Shown here piece after piece: positions 13,204 to 52,633 of a stretch of DNA of 64,000 nt (position 1 is the first letter of the stretch; every line of letters begins with the position of its first letter). The stretch spans positions 1-64,000 of the forward strand of contig JANQLB010000127.1 in assembly GCA_028280805.1 (NCBI GenBank), read 5' to 3'. The position numbers and the translations under genes are program-made. The stretch comes from Tissierellales bacterium. Its GTDB lineage: Bacteria > Bacillota > Clostridia > Tissierellales > VENL01. The notes beneath the pieces were generated by a model that ran no database searches, was not told the origin of the DNA, and saw nothing but the letters and a program-made list of their open reading frames with translations.

Positions 13204-16200
13204 TTATATAATAGCCGCTATAATATCTCCAGCAGTATTTACAAAGTTATAACTACTATAGTCAAATTCTTTTTCTTTTATAGGAACAGATATTTGTAAC
13301 ACACCTTTTACATAACCTTTACAAATTAATGGAACAATAATAAGAGATTGCCAGTTTGGAGTGCCTGTTAAAATGTCAATGTTTTCTACATATTCCCAAT
13401 CAATGAGATATTCGCCAACTTTATTCACAATTACTCTTTGAATAATTTTTTTGTTATAGTTAGTCTCATTTACCCAGTCTTCTACAAATATCTGCCTAGA
13501 ATAAATATCATCAATTTCTTTTTGATTGTTTAAAAGAAATAATGTAGCTTTTTTACCCTCAATAATTTCTATTAGTCTGCCTAAAATCCTGTATATTTTT
13601 TCTTTTCTGTTGAATTTTTCTTTTATTAAATCAATTATCTCTACAAGAGCTAAAACATTTCTAATATCCTGAACAGTATTACCTGATACAATACCTACAA
13701 GCTTATCTAATCTCTTGTTAGAATTCCCAATATCACTGCTCCACATTATTGATCTGTTTCTTCCTCTTTGTTTAGCTGCATAAAGTGCTTGGTCAGCCTT
13801 TTCAATTAATTCATCTTTTAATTGACCATGCTGAGGATAAACTGATATACCAAGGCTTATCGTTAAAGGATACTCATCACTTATCAATACAGCTTCTTCA
13901 ACTTTCTCTCTGATTTTTTCTGCTATCTTTTTGCTGTGTACTTCATTAGTATTAGCAAGCATAATTATGAACTCTTCTCCACCATATCGACCAACAACAT
14001 CGGTATTTCTGACATTTTCTAATATTATTTTTCCAACTTTACTTAATATCTCATCTCCCTTTCTATGTCCAAAGGTATCGTTAATTACTTTAAATTTATC
14101 AATATCAATCATTATCACTGATAGAAAAAATGTTTCTTTTTTAGCTTTATTTAAAATATCCTCTGAAATCATGTCAAAATATTTTCTAGTATATACTCCT
14201 GTAAGCTTATCTATAGATGATGAAATTTTCAGGTTATAGTTTTCAACATTCATAAACGCCAAATAAGACAAAATCTCAATTAGCTCATATCTTTTTTCAT
14301 CAAATCTGTTAAACAGTCTATCACAATCTAAGTATATATATCCTATAATTTCATCTTTATTAGGTTTCTTTGTTGTTTTTCTTCTTTCAGGCTCATCATT
14401 AACTTGTATATACTTATTTGCTCGATAAATAGGTACACAAATTAAAGCTTTTATATGATCAGTTAAATATATATATTCTTTAGAATTATTGTTTCCTAAA
14501 GAACTTTTTATTAACATCCCTTTATTTTTCTGTTTAACACGACTGACAATTTGATTTATAAACGAAAAATCATATATATTAGTGGTTGAAGCTAGTATTT
14601 TAGGCTTATCGATGTCATCGGGATATATCAAAACATAACCTTTATTGGCAAATGTTTCTTTTACTGCAAATTTTAAAATAAGGTCAAGATTGTCTTTATA
14701 ATCTTCTGTAAATCTTTTTATAAGTTCTTCAATAGTATTTATATCATGTATGGATGTTACCGTAAAATACTTTAATGCTGAACTGTAAAAATCCTTACTG
14801 TTAAAGAAATTTTTAAATTGGTTAATATCCAGATATTTTTCAATAGATGTATTTTCAGTAATATTTTCTTTATTTTTCTTTCCTGATATAATATCTCTTA
14901 TAGATTCAATTTTTTTCATTATACTTTTAGCATTATGTTTTTTTAGATAACTCTTTTCAATATTTGAATTTGGAATCTTTTTTGATGTTCTTTTTAAAAC
15001 ATCTAATGAAACTATAAAATAATATATTGCTTGATGGTATTCATGATTGTTATAAAATTCTTGTCCTAGTATCTTATTAATAAATATCTCTAACTCGACA
15101 TATTTATTCTTAACTTTATCCTCTAATTTTAGTATCTCATTAACATTATCTTTGTTTAATACTGCATTTAGTAAAAGATTCTTTAAAGAAAGATAATCTG
15201 CAATACTATCTTTTGACATTTCTTTACTTTCTATAAGAACTTCTTTAGCGTATTCTCTGTCACCAACTAGAACTGCAATCATTGCAATATCTAATAATGA
15301 ATTTATTCTTACACTATAAAAGTCATTTTCCCTATGCTCAAGTCGTATTTTATTTAAAGCTTTTTTATCTAAAACTCCAGTTTTATAGAACTTAATTAAT
15401 TCTATTCTTGTTACTGCTCTTAAATAAATTTTTTTCTTAGTAGTTATATCTCTTGCTTTTATACAAAATTCTAAAGATTTATCCCATTTACCAAATTTAA
15501 AATAGAACTCTCCCAGAAAATCTAAGTATTCATTTATATTTTCTCCTTGATTTGTGTATATTTCGTACTCTTGTATAACTAATTTATAATATTCAAAAGC
15601 TTTATCATATTCTCCCAATCCTAAATAAATTCTACCTAAATCGACATTGGCAAGAAAACTCATTCTTTTATCTTCTATTTCATTTGCTATTTTTTCTGTA
15701 TCTCTAATATATGAAATAGCTTTGTCGTATTGAGTAGTATAAATATAATTTTCGCCAATGTTTACCAAAGAAACTAATATTCCTTCTGATGAATTATATT
15801 TCTGGCAGATATTTAAACTCTTTTGGTAATATTCCATTGCCTTCTCTGCATTATAAAAATGGTCAGTATAGATTACTCCAATATTATTGATAGGTGCTGT
15901 TGATTGTATTAAGTTTCCTGACTTATTAAAATACTTTATACTATTTTCAAAGTATTTTTTACCTTTCTTTGCATCACCAGTAAACAGCTTTGTTACTCCA
16001 ATTTGATTATAATAATGAGCAACTTCGCTATAATATTTTTCCTTCTTGGCAATATCTATATATTTTTTAGTATGCTCTTCTACTTCATCAAATTTATTTT
16101 TCTGAATCATTATTCTATTTAAAATCCTTACAGAATTTAAATAACCTTCTATATAATTAAATTGCTCAGCGTTGTTTTTGGCATCTAATACATAATCTTT

Positions 16201-18564
16201 AGCAGTATCTAAATCGTTTCTTCTATAATAAATTTCACCTATAAAATTTTTTGAAATAACAACATAGGTTTGTTCATTAAGCATTTTTGCCCCTTCATGA
16301 ACTTCACTAAACACTTCTAAAGCATTTTCGTTTGCTCCTTGGGCTATATACAATCTTCCTAAATTAACCAAAACTTTAAGTTTATTAATATTCAATTGAT
16401 TTTTTAACAGCTCATTTGCCTTTTCCCATAATGAAATAGCTTGGGCATTTCCCATAAGATCTTCCATCCTCTTAGCCCAATCTATAGTATAGTCTATTGC
16501 TTTATCAAACTGATTTGACACAGTCAAATGATATATTAACTCGTCTTTATTATCTCTTTGCCGTTCATTATAAAGTTCCTCTAAAACTTTAGCTGCAAGC
16601 ATATGTAATACTTTTCTTTCTTCTTTATTTATACTATGATAAATATATTTTTTAGTCTGAATATTGTAATAGTCGTAAGTATATCCCCAGTCTTCTACCT
16701 TTTCATCTATTATTTTAATATCAATAAGTTTATTTATTAAATCATCCAGCTTGTCCTTATCCATATCTTTAATTCTTAATATTGTATTTTTTGAAACAGA
16801 AGTTCTAAATAAAGAAATTACTTTAGCAATTTCATAAAAATCATGTTCTAAAAAGTCAATTTGATTTTTTATAGCTTCATCTACATTTGACGGAATATGT
16901 ATATTTGAGTAGAGTTGGGTTTTTAAATCCCAATTTCCTACATGGTCAATAAATAATTCTCCTGAAGTATAAAGGTTTTTTATTACCTCTTCAATATGCC
17001 TCGGATTTCCTGATGTTTCAGTCATGATACGTGTTACAAATCTCATTGGTTTATATCTTATACCTAAAATATTCTTAATCATGAGAGCTGTTTGCTGCAA
17101 GTCAAATCTCAATAGTTCTAAAAACTTGACCTCCTTTAAATTTGACCATCCATCAGTAATTGTATTTAACTCTTTGTAACTTTCAGATAAGATATTGTTA
17201 TTAGAAATAATAAATAAAAGAGGGCAATTTTTCTTATTCCTAATAATATAGTTGATAAGTCTTAGAGTTTCCTTATCACTATTGTGTAAATCATCCAAAA
17301 TTATATATGTTGGATTATCTGCAATGAAATCAACTATAAAATTGGAAATTCTATCATAAAGCCTTAATATTTCTCTTTCACCACTTAAAACTGAAGAAGG
17401 TTTTATGTCATTGGCAATCCTAAGCTCAGGTATTATCTTTACAAGCTCACATCCATATTTATCAATCAATGTGTTATTGCAGTTCTTAATCATTTTTCTT
17501 AATATTTTTTTAATAGGCTCTAACTGTCTACTGCTTTTGTCTTTTATAGTAGTAAAGTAAACTGACCTTCCCCACATTCTCAATCTAAAATTAAATTCTT
17601 CTAATAGTCTTGTTTTACCAATACCACTTTCTCCTCTGATCAATAACAAATTTTTATTATAAACCCTATTTTTGAATTCATTATCAATTTTTAATAATTC
17701 ATCAATCTCCTTTTCCCGTGCAATGATTTCAGTAGAGAAATTCAATCTTTTCCGTTCATTACTAAAATCAACTTCATAGTTTATATCTTCTATTTGGTTT
17801 AAAATACTGATAAGAGATTTTATGTCTGCTTTTCTATTATGAGGGTCATTTTTAATCATGTTATTTACTAATTGATTAAGATTTCTTTTTATTGTATTGT
17901 AGGGCTTTCCTTTATATACACTATCATCATCAAGATAAGTTCCAAGCAAAAACTTAATTATCATACCGAGAGAATATATATCAGCACGATCTGTAATTTC
18001 ATCATTATTCATAATAACTTCAGGAGCCATAAAAGGTCTTGTACTTTCATCATAAGTATTCCTAATCTTCTGTTCATAAATTGAAGCTATATCTTTTAAT
18101 TTTATCTGTATTTCATTTTCATCTCTTTTTATATATATGTTTTTGGGACTTATATATTCATAAATTAATCCTCTAAAACTAAGGTAATCTACTACATTAC
18201 ATAACTGAGAAATAATGATAAGTTTCTCTTTAAAAGAAATCTGTAGATAACAATCTTTAAGCCTTGTACGACTAGTATACTCTTTAGTATAGAAATATTG
18301 ATTAGTTAAAGTTTTTTTATTGTCTATTACAGTAACAATGTCAAATTTTTCATTATTTAATAAGAATTTATGCTTAGTGTTAGAAAAGGTTAGAAAATTA
18401 TTACAAAAAAAATCATAAATTTTTTTATTTTGTCCACTATTTTCACATAACTTTAGAAGTCCCCGTTTATTACCATTCCAAAGATCAATTACCTCATATA
18501 TAACCCCATTATAATCCTCTTCAAATATGGTCTCAATTTTATACCTATTATTTAGAAGCTGCAT
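13204..18564 (-). CDS. Multidomain signalling protein: pseudokinase - AAA/STAND ATPase - TPR - GAF - GGDEF - GAF
   Basis: Kinase-like N-terminus (RYKIETIFEEDYNGVIYEV...FMAPEVI), Walker A GESGIGKT, Walker B IILDD, long TPR array, GGDEF (RNTDVVGRYGGEEF), C-terminal GAF-like region. Confidence 0.92.
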   Translation of the reverse strand: MQLLNNRYKIETIFEEDYNGVIYEVIDLWNGNKRGLLKLCENSGQNKKIYDFFCNNFLTFSNTKHKFLLNNEKFDIVTVIDNKKTLTNQYFYTKEYTSRTRLKDCYLQISFKEKLIIISQLCNVVDYLSFRGLIYEYISPKNIYIKRDENEIQIKLKDIASIYEQKIRNTYDESTRPFMAPEVIMNNDEITDRADIYSLGMIIKFLLGTYLDDDSVYKGKPYNTIKRNLNQLVNNMIKNDPHNRKADIKSLISILNQIEDINYEVDFSNERKRLNFSTEIIAREKEIDELLKIDNEFKNRVYNKNLLLIRGESGIGKTRLLEEFNFRLRMWGRSVYFTTIKDKSSRQLEPIKKILRKMIKNCNNTLIDKYGCELVKIIPELRIANDIKPSSVLSGEREILRLYDRISNFIVDFIADNPTYIILDDLHNSDKETLRLINYIIRNKKNCPLLFIISNNNILSESYKELNTITDGWSNLKEVKFLELLRFDLQQTALMIKNILGIRYKPMRFVTRIMTETSGNPRHIEEVIKNLYTSGELFIDHVGNWDLKTQLYSNIHIPSNVDEAIKNQIDFLEHDFYEIAKVISLFRTSVSKNTILRIKDMDKDKLDDLINKLIDIKIIDEKVEDWGYTYDYYNIQTKKYIYHSINKEERKVLHMLAAKVLEELYNERQRDNKDELIYHLTVSNQFDKAIDYTIDWAKRMEDLMGNAQAISLWEKANELLKNQLNINKLKVLVNLGRLYIAQGANENALEVFSEVHEGAKMLNEQTYVVISKNFIGEIYYRRNDLDTAKDYVLDAKNNAEQFNYIEGYLNSVRILNRIMIQKNKFDEVEEHTKKYIDIAKKEKYYSEVAHYYNQIGVTKLFTGDAKKGKKYFENSIKYFNKSGNLIQSTAPINNIGVIYTDHFYNAEKAMEYYQKSLNICQKYNSSEGILVSLVNIGENYIYTTQYDKAISYIRDTEKIANEIEDKRMSFLANVDLGRIYLGLGEYDKAFEYYKLVIQEYEIYTNQGENINEYLDFLGEFYFKFGKWDKSLEFCIKARDITTKKKIYLRAVTRIELIKFYKTGVLDKKALNKIRLEHRENDFYSVRINSLLDIAMIAVLVGDREYAKEVLIESKEMSKDSIADYLSLKNLLLNAVLNKDNVNEILKLEDKVKNKYVELEIFINKILGQEFYNNHEYHQAIYYFIVSLDVLKRTSKKIPNSNIEKSYLKKHNAKSIMKKIESIRDIISGKKNKENITENTSIEKYLDINQFKNFFNSKDFYSSALKYFTVTSIHDINTIEELIKRFTEDYKDNLDLILKFAVKETFANKGYVLIYPDDIDKPKILASTTNIYDFSFINQIVSRVKQKNKGMLIKSSLGNNNSKEYIYLTDHIKALICVPIYRANKYIQVNDEPERRKTTKKPNKDEIIGYIYLDCDRLFNRFDEKRYELIEILSYLAFMNVENYNLKISSSIDKLTGVYTRKYFDMISEDILNKAKKETFFLSVIMIDIDKFKVINDTFGHRKGDEILSKVGKIILENVRNTDVVGRYGGEEFIIMLANTNEVHSKKIAEKIREKVEEAVLISDEYPLTISLGISVYPQHGQLKDELIEKADQALYAAKQRGRNRSIMWSSDIGNSNKRLDKLVGIVSGNTVQDIRNVLALVEIIDLIKEKFNRKEKIYRILGRLIEIIEGKKATLFLLNNQKEIDDIYSRQIFVEDWVNETNYNKKIIQRVIVNKVGEYLIDWEYVENIDILTGTPNWQSLIIVPLICKGYVKGVLQISVPIKEKEFDYSSYNFVNTAGDIIAAII

Positions 18565-35119: not shown

Positions 35120-36388
35120 TTATTCAACGTATGAAAGAGATTCTATTATTGTCAATACGGGAACTACTCCATAGTACTCATTGTTTTTTGTTACTATAAC
35201 ATAATCATACGTTTTTTCTTCTCTTCTTGATACTGCCATTCTTGCTACTTTTCTTATTGGTGCATTGTAATCTACTATTAAAGGCAGCTTTGTCATCACC
35301 TTTGAGATTTCAATATCTTCAATTCCTTTTAAGTCTTTTGTCATTAACTTGTAATAAAATTTATTTCTCATAACCAGACCTACAGGTCTGTTATTACTTA
35401 TAACAGGTATCCCTTGCAGGTTATGTTTGTCCAAAAATATCTGGTTAACATAGTTTATAGTCTTATTACTTGGAATTGCATTATCTTTTCTTGCTAAAAA
35501 TCCAATGTAAAAATTATTTAACATTCCTCTTCTTAGAATTTGTGAACGCTTACTTAAGTCATTAATTAGCTGTAATTTTGATCGTTCTATTTTGCTGCTT
35601 ATTTTACCGGAAGGTCTTTCTAAGAAATAACCTTGACCATAATCAATACCTAAATCAATAAGAGTCTTTAGCTCACTCTCCGTCTCAATTCCTTCTGCTA
35701 TTAGTTTAATATTAGTATTCTTTGAAAAATCACAAAATGTTTTAATCAAATCCTGCTTTATTTTACTTATATCAATATTTCTTACTAAATCCATGTCAAT
35801 TTTTAAGTAATTTGGATGAGTCTCAGCTAGAAGCACTAGACCAGAATACCCTGACCCTGCATCATCTAAAGCTATATTATATCCTTGCTCAGAATAATTG
35901 TCTAATACATCTCTTAGTTCTTTATAGTCACTTACAGCTGTATTCTCCGTAATCTCAAATATTATGTCGCTAGGATCTACATTAAACTGTTCTAAAAGTC
36001 CTTTAGTAAATCCTTTTTTAAATTTACTATCTTGAATTATATTCGGGTCTATATTAATGAATAGTTTTTTTTTATTTAATTTACCATAAGAATTTTCTAA
36101 TGCCTTATGTCTGCACACCAACTCCAAATCCCACAGCATATTATATTTTTTAGCGGCATCAAATAAAGCAAGTGGACTAAAAAATTCCGAATCCTTAGGT
36201 CCTCTGCTTAATGCTTCATATCCCAATATTTCACCATCGGATAAAGATATTATTGGTTGAAACAAAGTATTAATTCTACCTTCTGATATGATTGATTTAA
36301 AGTCTAAATATGAATTGTGAAATATCAAACTTTGCATATTAAAACCTACCTTTTTATATGGTTTATATATAGAATATATAATAATCAC
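35120..36388 (-). CDS. EAL-domain c-di-GMP phosphodiesterase with C-terminal CBS-like domains
   Basis: GYEALSRG, FINIDPN, FEITENT, LDDAGSGYSG, LKIDMDLVR, AEGIETESE, GQGYFLERP all retained; likely start MQSLIFHNS at ~36337. Confidence 0.93.
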   Translation of the reverse strand: MIIIYSIYKPYKKVGFNMQSLIFHNSYLDFKSIISEGRINTLFQPIISLSDGEILGYEALSRGPKDSEFFSPLALFDAAKKYNMLWDLELVCRHKALENSYGKLNKKKLFINIDPNIIQDSKFKKGFTKGLLEQFNVDPSDIIFEITENTAVSDYKELRDVLDNYSEQGYNIALDDAGSGYSGLVLLAETHPNYLKIDMDLVRNIDISKIKQDLIKTFCDFSKNTNIKLIAEGIETESELKTLIDLGIDYGQGYFLERPSGKISSKIERSKLQLINDLSKRSQILRRGMLNNFYIGFLARKDNAIPSNKTINYVNQIFLDKHNLQGIPVISNNRPVGLVMRNKFYYKLMTKDLKGIEDIEISKVMTKLPLIVDYNAPIRKVARMAVSRREEKTYDYVIVTKNNEYYGVVPVLTIIESLSYVE

Positions 36389-36482: not shown

Positions 36483-36667
36483 AACATCCCGGGGTGCCGT
36501 TGCTCTTATAATTCACGCCCGCTTCTTAAGCAGGTGGGTACTCTGTCATAGGCTTCTGACGTCCTTTTATAGTTAAGGCATGTCATTAGTACATGAACTC
36601 AAGTTCCCGTATAATCTATGTCGGTTGAATTATCAAGTGCTGACGAACATCTCAGGAATGTTTCTTG
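36483..36667 (-). ncRNA. ssrS: 6S RNA
   Basis: Minus strand 5' CATTCCTGAGATGTTCG... and 3' ...ACGGCACCCCGGGATG closing arms, central GAAGCCT and CCCACCTGCTTAAGAAGCGGG element, own TATAAT box just upstream and terminator downstream. Confidence 0.82.
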
Positions 36668-39331: not shown

Positions 39332-39535
39332 TTAATAATAGAAAAACCCTCTTCTACCAAAACGCGGTCTAAATCCAAAGCCCGGTCCATATCCAAAACC
39401 CGGCCTAAATCCAAAACCCGGTCCATATCCGAAGCCTGGCCTAAATCCAAAACCCGGTCCATATCCAAAGCCCGGTCTAAATCCAAAACCCGGTCCAAAT
39501 CTAGGTTGTTGAGCATATACACCTGTATTATACAT
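39332..39535 (-). CDS. Gly/Phe/Pro-rich tandem-repeat protein
   Basis: [42 protein letters not shown]...; strong RBS GGAGGTGA before ATG at 39535. Confidence 0.75.
39365..39505. repeat. ~36-bp tandem repeat encoding [12 protein letters not shown]
   Basis: Direct visual periodicity of ccggtCtaaatccaaaacccggtccatatcc units. Confidence 0.85.
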
Positions 39536-39834
39536 TAAAGTCACCTCCATTTTTATCAAGTGCTTTCTTATATAATAAAATATGTATTTCTATACAATCT
39601 GCTACAGTTTTTGTTTAAGTACAATATGAATTAGTTTTAAATATTAGTTTATTAGAATTATTTTAAAATTATCGTGCAGTTTGATATTATAAATAAAACA
39701 GCTAATATATTAATAAAATATCTTATTCTTATCTCAAATCCAGAAAGCTTAACATAACAATACATTCAATTCAATAAAATGAAGTAGAAAAATTAAATAA
39801 GTATATTAACAAAAATGAAGCTAAGTAACATAAC

Positions 39835-39944: not shown

Positions 39945-40295
39945 CTATTTAGCTTCTTTAATACTTTGTATAAAAGTAATCTTTTCAAGTAATTTTTCTT
40001 TTCCTAATCTTTTAACTTGGTTAGTTGTAATAGCAGAATCTATAACAATAGAATATCTTTTAGCAAAAGGAGTACTTACATAGACATTAATTGCTTTCTC
40101 TTGTAATGGTACAACATCTTGTGCAGAAGGTTTTTGATCTTTTGCATCAATAATCAAAGTATACTCTTTAGGATTAATAGTTTTTATTTTTTCCTCTAAT
40201 TCATCTAAAAACGCAATTGCTTCTTCCTTCTTAAACATACCTGAAGCATTAACTTCAAACCTTTTTTGTAATGAATTAACATTAATTTTATACAT
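39945..40295 (-). CDS. STAS/SpoIIAA-like small protein of unknown function
   Basis: ORF with RBS; similar by eye to 52099..52464 product. Confidence 0.6.
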   Translation of the reverse strand: MYKINVNSLQKRFEVNASGMFKKEEAIAFLDELEEKIKTINPKEYTLIIDAKDQKPSAQDVVPLQEKAINVYVSTPFAKRYSIVIDSAITTNQVKRLGKEKLLEKITFIQSIKEAK

Positions 40296-40469: not shown

Positions 40470-41252
40470 CTATATATCATACTCGGGTTTTAATGCCTTA
40501 TATAAAATTCTACAATCTGTTGCTACTTCTTTTGGTATTTTACTAAAGATTTCAACACTTGAATATTCTTTAAGTATAGGCATGTCATGCTTGTCTATAA
40601 CTAAATGAAAATCGTGATAATCTGTAAGTACTTTTGATGATTTTATATTTGTAGCTTCAGCAAAAACTCCCTTATAACCATTTTCTTTTCCCTTTTTCAT
40701 AATCAATTCCACTAGCTTAGCAATAACATAACTTTTGAATTTTCCAAGTCTTGAACCAGCCATAAAAGCATGTACATATTCATTTTTCTCAACCTTTTTA
40801 CCTGTTTTATACTCTATAGTGCTAATAAACCTCTCGTTTATCTCTCCCAAAAATTCCATTACTTTATTCATAGGAGATAAACTGCCTTCAAAGATAGGAG
40901 CTTCTTCATCTGGATTGAAATTTTCACATGCAACAACAGCAACAACTCTGTCAATTGTTTTATCTTTTGCTACAAAAGATAAACCGTCATTAACAGATGC
41001 TTTAAGATATTCTAAAACGAATTGAAACATATCATCTTTAGATAATCCACAAGCTTTGACCATCGGTTCATAAATTTCCTTCCCAGATATATCCATTCCA
41101 GTAAATGTTTCAGCGAGGCATTTTACAGAATCTAAAATTAGTTCTTCGTCGTTTTCTTCTAAAACTTCATACTTTAAATTTAATTGTGATGGTGATTCTA
41201 AATGTAGAGTAATATCAGGAAAAGGTTTTTCTTTTATTAATACAGTATCCAA
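40470..41252 (-). CDS. GNAT-like N-acetyltransferase family protein downstream of c-di-GMP riboswitch
   Basis: ORF with strong RBS AAAGGAGGTG before TTG start; YVIAKLVELIMKKGKENGYKGVFAEATNIKSSKVLTDYHDF pattern. Confidence 0.7.
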   Translation of the reverse strand: MDTVLIKEKPFPDITLHLESPSQLNLKYEVLEENDEELILDSVKCLAETFTGMDISGKEIYEPMVKACGLSKDDMFQFVLEYLKASVNDGLSFVAKDKTIDRVVAVVACENFNPDEEAPIFEGSLSPMNKVMEFLGEINERFISTIEYKTGKKVEKNEYVHAFMAGSRLGKFKSYVIAKLVELIMKKGKENGYKGVFAEATNIKSSKVLTDYHDFHLVIDKHDMPILKEYSSVEIFSKIPKEVATDCRILYKALKPEYDI

Positions 41253-41351
41253 CGTATATCACCTCCTTTGTAATTTTTTATGGATATGTTGTCTAATGTT
41301 TTGGAATATGTTAGATTAGATGTGCTGGTATAAATTGGATTTTGTGAGAGA

Positions 41352-41380
41352 TAAAAATAACAACTACATTAATGCAGTTG
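41352..41380 (-). terminator. Riboswitch-associated terminator
   Basis: CAACTGCATTAATGTAGTTG hairpin followed by TTATTTTTAT on minus strand. Confidence 0.7.
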
Positions 41381-41403
41381 CCTTTATAAATATAATAATA
41401 TCT

Positions 41404-41485
41404 AGGCAACCTGGCAATCATAGGAACTGCTTTCCCTTAGACCCATAGCTTTGCGACCCTGTTTTTCAACAGGTGTGCCATTTTC
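41404..41485 (-). promoter_or_regulatory. c-di-GMP-I (GEMM-I) riboswitch aptamer
   Basis: Minus strand GGCACACCTGTTGAAAAACAGGGTCGCAAAGCTATGGGTCTAAGG...CTATGATTGCCAGGTTGCC matches consensus (GAAA tetraloop, CGCAAAG, GGGTCTAA, TATG, GGTTGCC). Confidence 0.94.
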
Positions 41486-41490
41486 TAAGT

Positions 41491-41496
41491 ATTATA
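41491..41496 (-). promoter_or_regulatory. -10 element upstream of riboswitch
   Basis: TATAAT on minus strand immediately 5' of the leader. Confidence 0.5.
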
Positions 41497-41610
41497 TGAT
41501 ATTTCGTTACATTATATCATTTTTAGTAATAATTATCAACTAATTAAACAAAATTAATTACAATAAAAAAATATTCTATTATTTTTTTTATTTATATTGT
41601 CTAAGTATAA

Positions 41611-52098: not shown

Positions 52099-52464
52099 TT
52101 AAAGTTGTCTTAGATTCTTTATAACTTCATCTATACTATTTACTTGAATAATATCCTTACCTACATATTTTTTTAATATTTCTGCTTGCTTTATTGATTT
52201 TAAATCATCATTAACTATAGCAAAAATATTTTTAAAATCAGTTTTTTTGTATATGCTCATAATTTGACTCAGGGAAATCATAGTATTAATTGATCTAATT
52301 TCAACATCCTTAATTTCTACAACTAAGCTGTAATTTTCAGTATTAATACCGTTTATAGTACATTTGAGTTGTTCTATAAACTTTTTTATGTAATTTTGCT
52401 CTATATTACCTCTAATTAAAACAGAAAATATCTTTTCTTTTTCCATTACGTTTATATTAAACAT
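52099..52464 (-). CDS. STAS-like small protein, paralog-like to 39945..40295
   Basis: MFNINVMEKEKIFSVLIRGNIEQ...INTENYSLVVEIKDVE... Confidence 0.6.
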   Translation of the reverse strand: MFNINVMEKEKIFSVLIRGNIEQNYIKKFIEQLKCTINGINTENYSLVVEIKDVEIRSINTMISLSQIMSIYKKTDFKNIFAIVNDDLKSIKQAEILKKYVGKDIIQVNSIDEVIKNLRQL

Positions 52465-52633
52465 AGTTTCACCCTCCATAATTTATAATAAGATACTTTC
52501 TATAATATGCAGGTTTATAAAAAAAGTTCCAAGCACATAAATTTTAAAAATCAAATTTTAAGATTATAGAACTATTTATCATTCTTATGAATATAATGTA
52601 ATATATTATTTTCATAAAAAGGGATGATTGTTA

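Follow-up and report, generated by a model that had tools for sequence, protein, structure and literature searches.

Does the class-I c-di-GMP aptamer on the minus strand of this clostridial DNA control the genes downstream from it, in which direction, and what do these genes encode? The window, meaning the whole stretch of 64,000 nucleotides analysed here, had been described beforehand as carrying a c-di-GMP-I aptamer of near-complete consensus on that strand, and all coordinates of this preliminary description agreed with the sequence. The covariance-model check identified RF01051 with 81.6 bits (E 1.7e-14; Rfam gathering score 35 bits) over the full length of the model (1-87 of 87). When the aptamer helices were enforced, the fold also contained a P1 helix, AUAAUA-C-UUAG / CUAG-A-UAUUAU (41495-41485 / 41405-41395). 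RF01051 was found once in this genome of 3.41 Mb; since the assembly consists of 137 contigs and is about 89% complete, another copy could be absent from the data. The feature is a class-I switch of a well-known kind, and the regulated genes are its unusual part (Table 1). We give a probability of roughly 85% to the reading that it is a c-di-GMP-I OFF switch with an antiterminator/terminator platform, governing an operon of a GNAT-like and a STAS-like gene, of which we infer the ligand, the direction of switching, the co-transcription and the protein activities.

Table 1. Features of the candidate riboswitch and of the two genes downstream from it, in window coordinates.
Feature	Position	Strand	Basis
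Sigma-70-type promoter (predicted), TTGATA-17-TATAAT, TG before -10	41511-41539	(-)	11/12 consensus matches
P1 5' strand, AUAAUA-C-UUAG	41485-41495	(-)	Aptamer-forced fold
c-di-GMP-I (RF01051) aptamer	41402-41489	(-)	Rfam covariance-model match, G at Vc2 G20 equivalent
Antiterminator strand A, GGTTGCCT (GGUUGCCU)	41404-41411	(-)	P3 base 3' side, J1/3, first P1 bases
Antiterminator strand T, AGGCAACT (AGGCAACU)	41376-41383	(-)	Overlaps terminator 5' arm
Intrinsic terminator hairpin and T-rich tract	41351-41382	(-)	Terminator scan and folding
260-aa AANAT-type GNAT-fold protein (predicted), TTG start	40470-41252	(-)	ORF, AlphaFold/Foldseek, L002 orthologue
116-aa STAS/SpoIIAA-like protein (putative), second gene of module	39945-40295	(-)	ORF, profile family, gene-pair conservation

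The ligand was addressed through the position matching G20 of Vc2, an equivalence taken from published numbering (PMC6274999, PMC9262584) and from our own alignment. This position is a G in the window (UGGCAC), as in the c-di-GMP type rather than GEMM-Ib. Seven GGDEF domains are encoded in the genome, together with an EAL protein (35120-36388), so c-di-GMP is the expected ligand. It is improbable that the physiological ligand of the same RNA is instead 3',3'-cGAMP, or both dinucleotides. That reading draws on the orthologous switch at L002, which together with L025 is one of two loci from one other Clostridia MAG: L002 has an A at the G20 position, and a G20A substitution has served to turn a class-I aptamer into a cGAMP binder (PMC6274999). 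The G of the window speaks against it, as does another pair of orthologous aptamers, L045 with G and L044 with A, which differ although the downstream gene is the same; moreover, the base at position 20 has been described as a selectivity factor, not a filter (PMC9262584). Because both orthologous pairs differ, an A may not signal a cGAMP switch in this group, a point that bears on how such an A is read in Clostridia generally. An A at this position is common among these Clostridia aptamers (L002:3733-3820, L022, L015, L016, L044, L048, L051, L054 and L064).

Control of the downstream genes by c-di-GMP requires that transcription begin ahead of the aptamer. The predicted promoter would place the transcript start near 41504, some 15 nt before the modelled aptamer begins, and equivalent promoters occupy the same position just upstream of the aptamers of L002 (TTGCTA-17-TATTAT) and L025 (TTGCTA-17-TATAAT). 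At L002, the RF01051 aptamer (78.6 bits) precedes an orthologue of the 260-aa protein (68-69% identity, also with a TTG start), and the riboswitch-GNAT-STAS order is the same as in the window, with about 69% and 66% identity for the two proteins. At L025, the aptamer precedes a STAS-like gene. A promoter-like site within the end of the window aptamer (41417-41389, 10/12 matches) could bypass the riboswitch. This site, and several others between the genes, would fit a real aptamer that does not control the operon: transcription would enter at its 3' end or further down, and the aptamer-terminator unit would be only a short RNA or a relic; several class-I aptamers of C. difficile have no detectable downstream coding sequence (PMC6200980). 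We leave this explanation a slim chance, since the upstream promoter, the aptamer, strands A and T and the gene order are jointly kept in L002, whereas the -10 element of the internal site is not. Given the promoter-like sites ahead of it (40436-40409 and 40354-40326), the STAS-like gene may have its own transcription too.

For the switch itself, it had been proposed that the 3' strand of P1 plus the next base pairs with a segment overlapping the 5' arm of a terminator. The 8-bp complementarity was confirmed: among 300 dinucleotide shuffles of the 110 nt that follow, 2 equalled or exceeded it (9/300 at L002, 0/300 at L025), and the partner at 41383-41376 does overlap the arm at 41380-41372. 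The identity of the first strand had to be revised, because P1, as placed by the aptamer-forced fold, contributes just two bases to strand A, which consists mostly of the 3' strand at the base of P3 (GGUU) and of J1/3 with its ligand-contacting C. Strands A and T are two of the three matches to AGGCAACY in the window, against 1.86 expected. Strand A and the GGCAACU of strand T do not vary among the window, L002 and L025, in contrast to the diverged linker between them; the terminator is conserved in L002 and L025 as well. In the window its 3' arm lies at 41369-41361, followed by a T-rich tract (41360-41351) that is weak (TTATTTTTAT). Two terminator-like hairpins, this one included, were found in 2 kb, versus 0.4 expected.

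Folding of the leader pointed to competition between the two structures. The unconstrained minimum-free-energy fold was the antiterminator (-37.0 kcal/mol), and in folds of the growing transcript it first appeared with the 3' end at 41378, ahead of the terminator 3' arm. With the aptamer helices enforced, the terminator had a probability of 0.94 and the antiterminator one of 0.05. At equilibrium without ligand, the terminator reached P 0.61 for the full leader of the window, 0.83 for L002 and 0.87 for L025; the antiterminator was weaker in the latter two (P 0.14 and 0.09), and enforcing the L025 aptamer did not raise the terminator (0.87 to 0.85). As the terminator is well populated at equilibrium without ligand, switching must be kinetic, i.e., co-transcriptional, as has been modelled for Cd1 of C. 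difficile (PMC9262584). The OFF-type logic of the preliminary description is backed by the free versus aptamer-forced folds, by the conservation of the strands and by precedent, the class-I switches of C. difficile being OFF (PMC6200980, PMC3649979, PMC9262584) with the exception of Cdi-1-1, whose net positive regulation acts through its promoter (PMC6200980). Without ligand, 41411-41404 would pair with 41383-41376 on emergence and keep 41380-41372 from the terminator, and the GNAT-like and STAS-like genes would be transcribed. With c-di-GMP bound, P3, the J1/3 junction and P1 would hold 41411-41395, the hairpin 41380-41361 would form and RNA polymerase would stop. Since ligand binding would free the terminator, the operon is expected to be on at low c-di-GMP. 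An ON switch, in which the ligand favours read-through as in ON-type platforms of the wider family (pilM of Geobacter, PMC9262584), is hardly credible, given that aptamer and antiterminator vie for one strand, that the forced-aptamer fold contains the terminator and that the C. difficile switches of this class are OFF (PMC6200980).

The proposed OFF switch shares its layout with Cd1 (Cdi1_3) from the C. difficile flgB leader, where the 3' strand of a class-I aptamer likewise forms an antiterminator with the 5' arm of an intrinsic terminator and the ligand favours termination (PMC9262584, PMC3649979). The targets differ, with flagellar genes there and a GNAT-like/STAS-like operon here, and P1 can form in the window aptamer whereas none was detected in Cd1. 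Vc2 of Vibrio cholerae belongs to the same aptamer class and has the same G at the ligand-contact position, but it was described as a translational OFF switch (PMC9262584), while the switch of the window has a terminator.

The first gene has a strong Shine-Dalgarno sequence (AAAGGAGG) ahead of its start codon. For its 260-aa product, nothing significant came out of searches against Pfam, NCBIfam and PDB sequences. The product had been called GNAT-like, and structure prediction bore this out. AlphaFold run on six family sequences reached a pLDDT of 84.6 (35.7 with two sequences). This model was matched by Foldseek to the C-terminal condensation domain of Ebony (6dym), to insect arylalkylamine (dopamine) N-acetyltransferases and to the polyamine acetyltransferase A654L of PBCV-1, with E-values of 1e-11 to 1e-9 and TM-scores by target of up to 0.84, at 13-17% identity. 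A distant relative (L027, E 4e-10) scores as a GNAT and passes PF00583. The acetyl-CoA loop Q/RxxGxG/A of these enzymes is absent from the family: K-S/R-Y/F-V-I/V aligns to RRGIA of L027, and the loop Gly/Ala are replaced by Tyr/Phe and Ile/Val in 6/6 members. Model and alignment together support a predicted AANAT-like GNAT fold in which the CoA loop is altered. Matches to PipA, 'bacteriophage virulence determinant' (6ggo) and the de novo ABLE were weak, at chance level. A reading as a LuxI-like acyl-homoserine-lactone synthase, prompted by an 'SRL' motif, was also dropped, as the family members do not share the Arg. The distant GNAT gene (L027:1492-2160) adjoins an ORF resembling an NRPS condensation domain.

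The one relative of the 260-aa protein found in the genome collection was that at L002 (68% identity). In profile searches covering about 1,100 genomes, clear relatives outside the window's own genome were confined to G273 (two tandem copies), G306 and G640. L007 was a weak match (E 4e-4), and another (G396/L006) was discarded as it sits in a RecF-looking ORF. No relatives were found in phages and plasmids. Each relative in G273, G306 and G640 adjoins a divergent STAS-like gene; no Rfam match lies beside these pairs, which limits the association of pair and riboswitch to the window and L002.

The preliminary description correctly named the GNAT-like gene as a target but missed the STAS-like gene that is conserved as a pair with it. 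No terminator-like site separates the two, and the regulated unit is probably an operon of both. The assignment of the second product as STAS-like is borderline. Pfam gave no significant match to the 116-aa protein itself, and the name comes from the look of the sequence and from a family member of 129 aa (L022), which scored 23.5 bits against SpoIIAA-like/STAS (PF11964; cut-off 25). Of 248 genomes of the order, 14 encode the family (profile A8). An RF01051 aptamer precedes members of it in the window, G002 (L013), G241 and G244. In G241 and G244, the aptamer is followed by a GAF-like gene, then by a gene that at its start looks by eye like a TPP-dependent enzyme, and then by the STAS-like gene. 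In the genome that contains L002, 3/3 STAS-like members and 3/4 aptamers are paired in the aptamer-then-STAS arrangement. Other members (L034-L037, L039 and L040) have no aptamer nearby, so that the association recurs without being universal. The loci are not independent of each other. Because it recurs under the same riboswitch class, the STAS-like family is a better functional clue than the GNAT-like gene. Across the loci inspected, STAS/SpoIIAA-like genes lie downstream of c-di-GMP-I aptamers at L022, L041, L013, L025, L097 and L098, accompanied at L022, L097 and L098 by a GAF-like and a TPP-dependent-enzyme-like gene. The window also carries a second STAS-like paralogue, without aptamer, at 52099-52479 (-).

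As the switch mechanism is textbook, the interest lies in the regulon. A literature search for STAS-domain or acetyltransferase genes under c-di-GMP riboswitches retrieved nothing relevant. Through this locus, c-di-GMP would be connected with two uncharacterised protein families whose genes occur side by side, one of them the STAS-like family seen repeatedly under switches of class I. The first protein would have an arylalkylamine N-acyltransferase-like GNAT fold, and the second, small and STAS-like, could act as a regulator or bind a ligand. For the Ebony domain, a carrier-protein-bound acyl donor is the probable one. One may speculate, though we consider it unlikely, that the STAS-like family under class-I switches represents an unrecognised c-di-GMP output of Clostridia, joined here by an AANAT-fold enzyme that has lost the standard acetyl-CoA loop and may take another acyl donor (e.g., carrier-protein-bound). 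At low c-di-GMP, cells would then produce or alter a small molecule derived from an amine, which the STAS-like partner would sense or handle.

Other features were noted in the window. A 6S RNA (36483-36661 (-), 81.4 bits) lies just upstream of the gene of the EAL protein, which is an EAL-CBS protein. A 1786-aa protein with a GGDEF domain is encoded at 13204-18564 (-), with parts that by eye resemble kinase, AAA, TPR and GAF. An ORF of 75 aa (39332-39559 (-)) is built of repeats, encoded by an 18/36-bp tandem array at 39357-39501.
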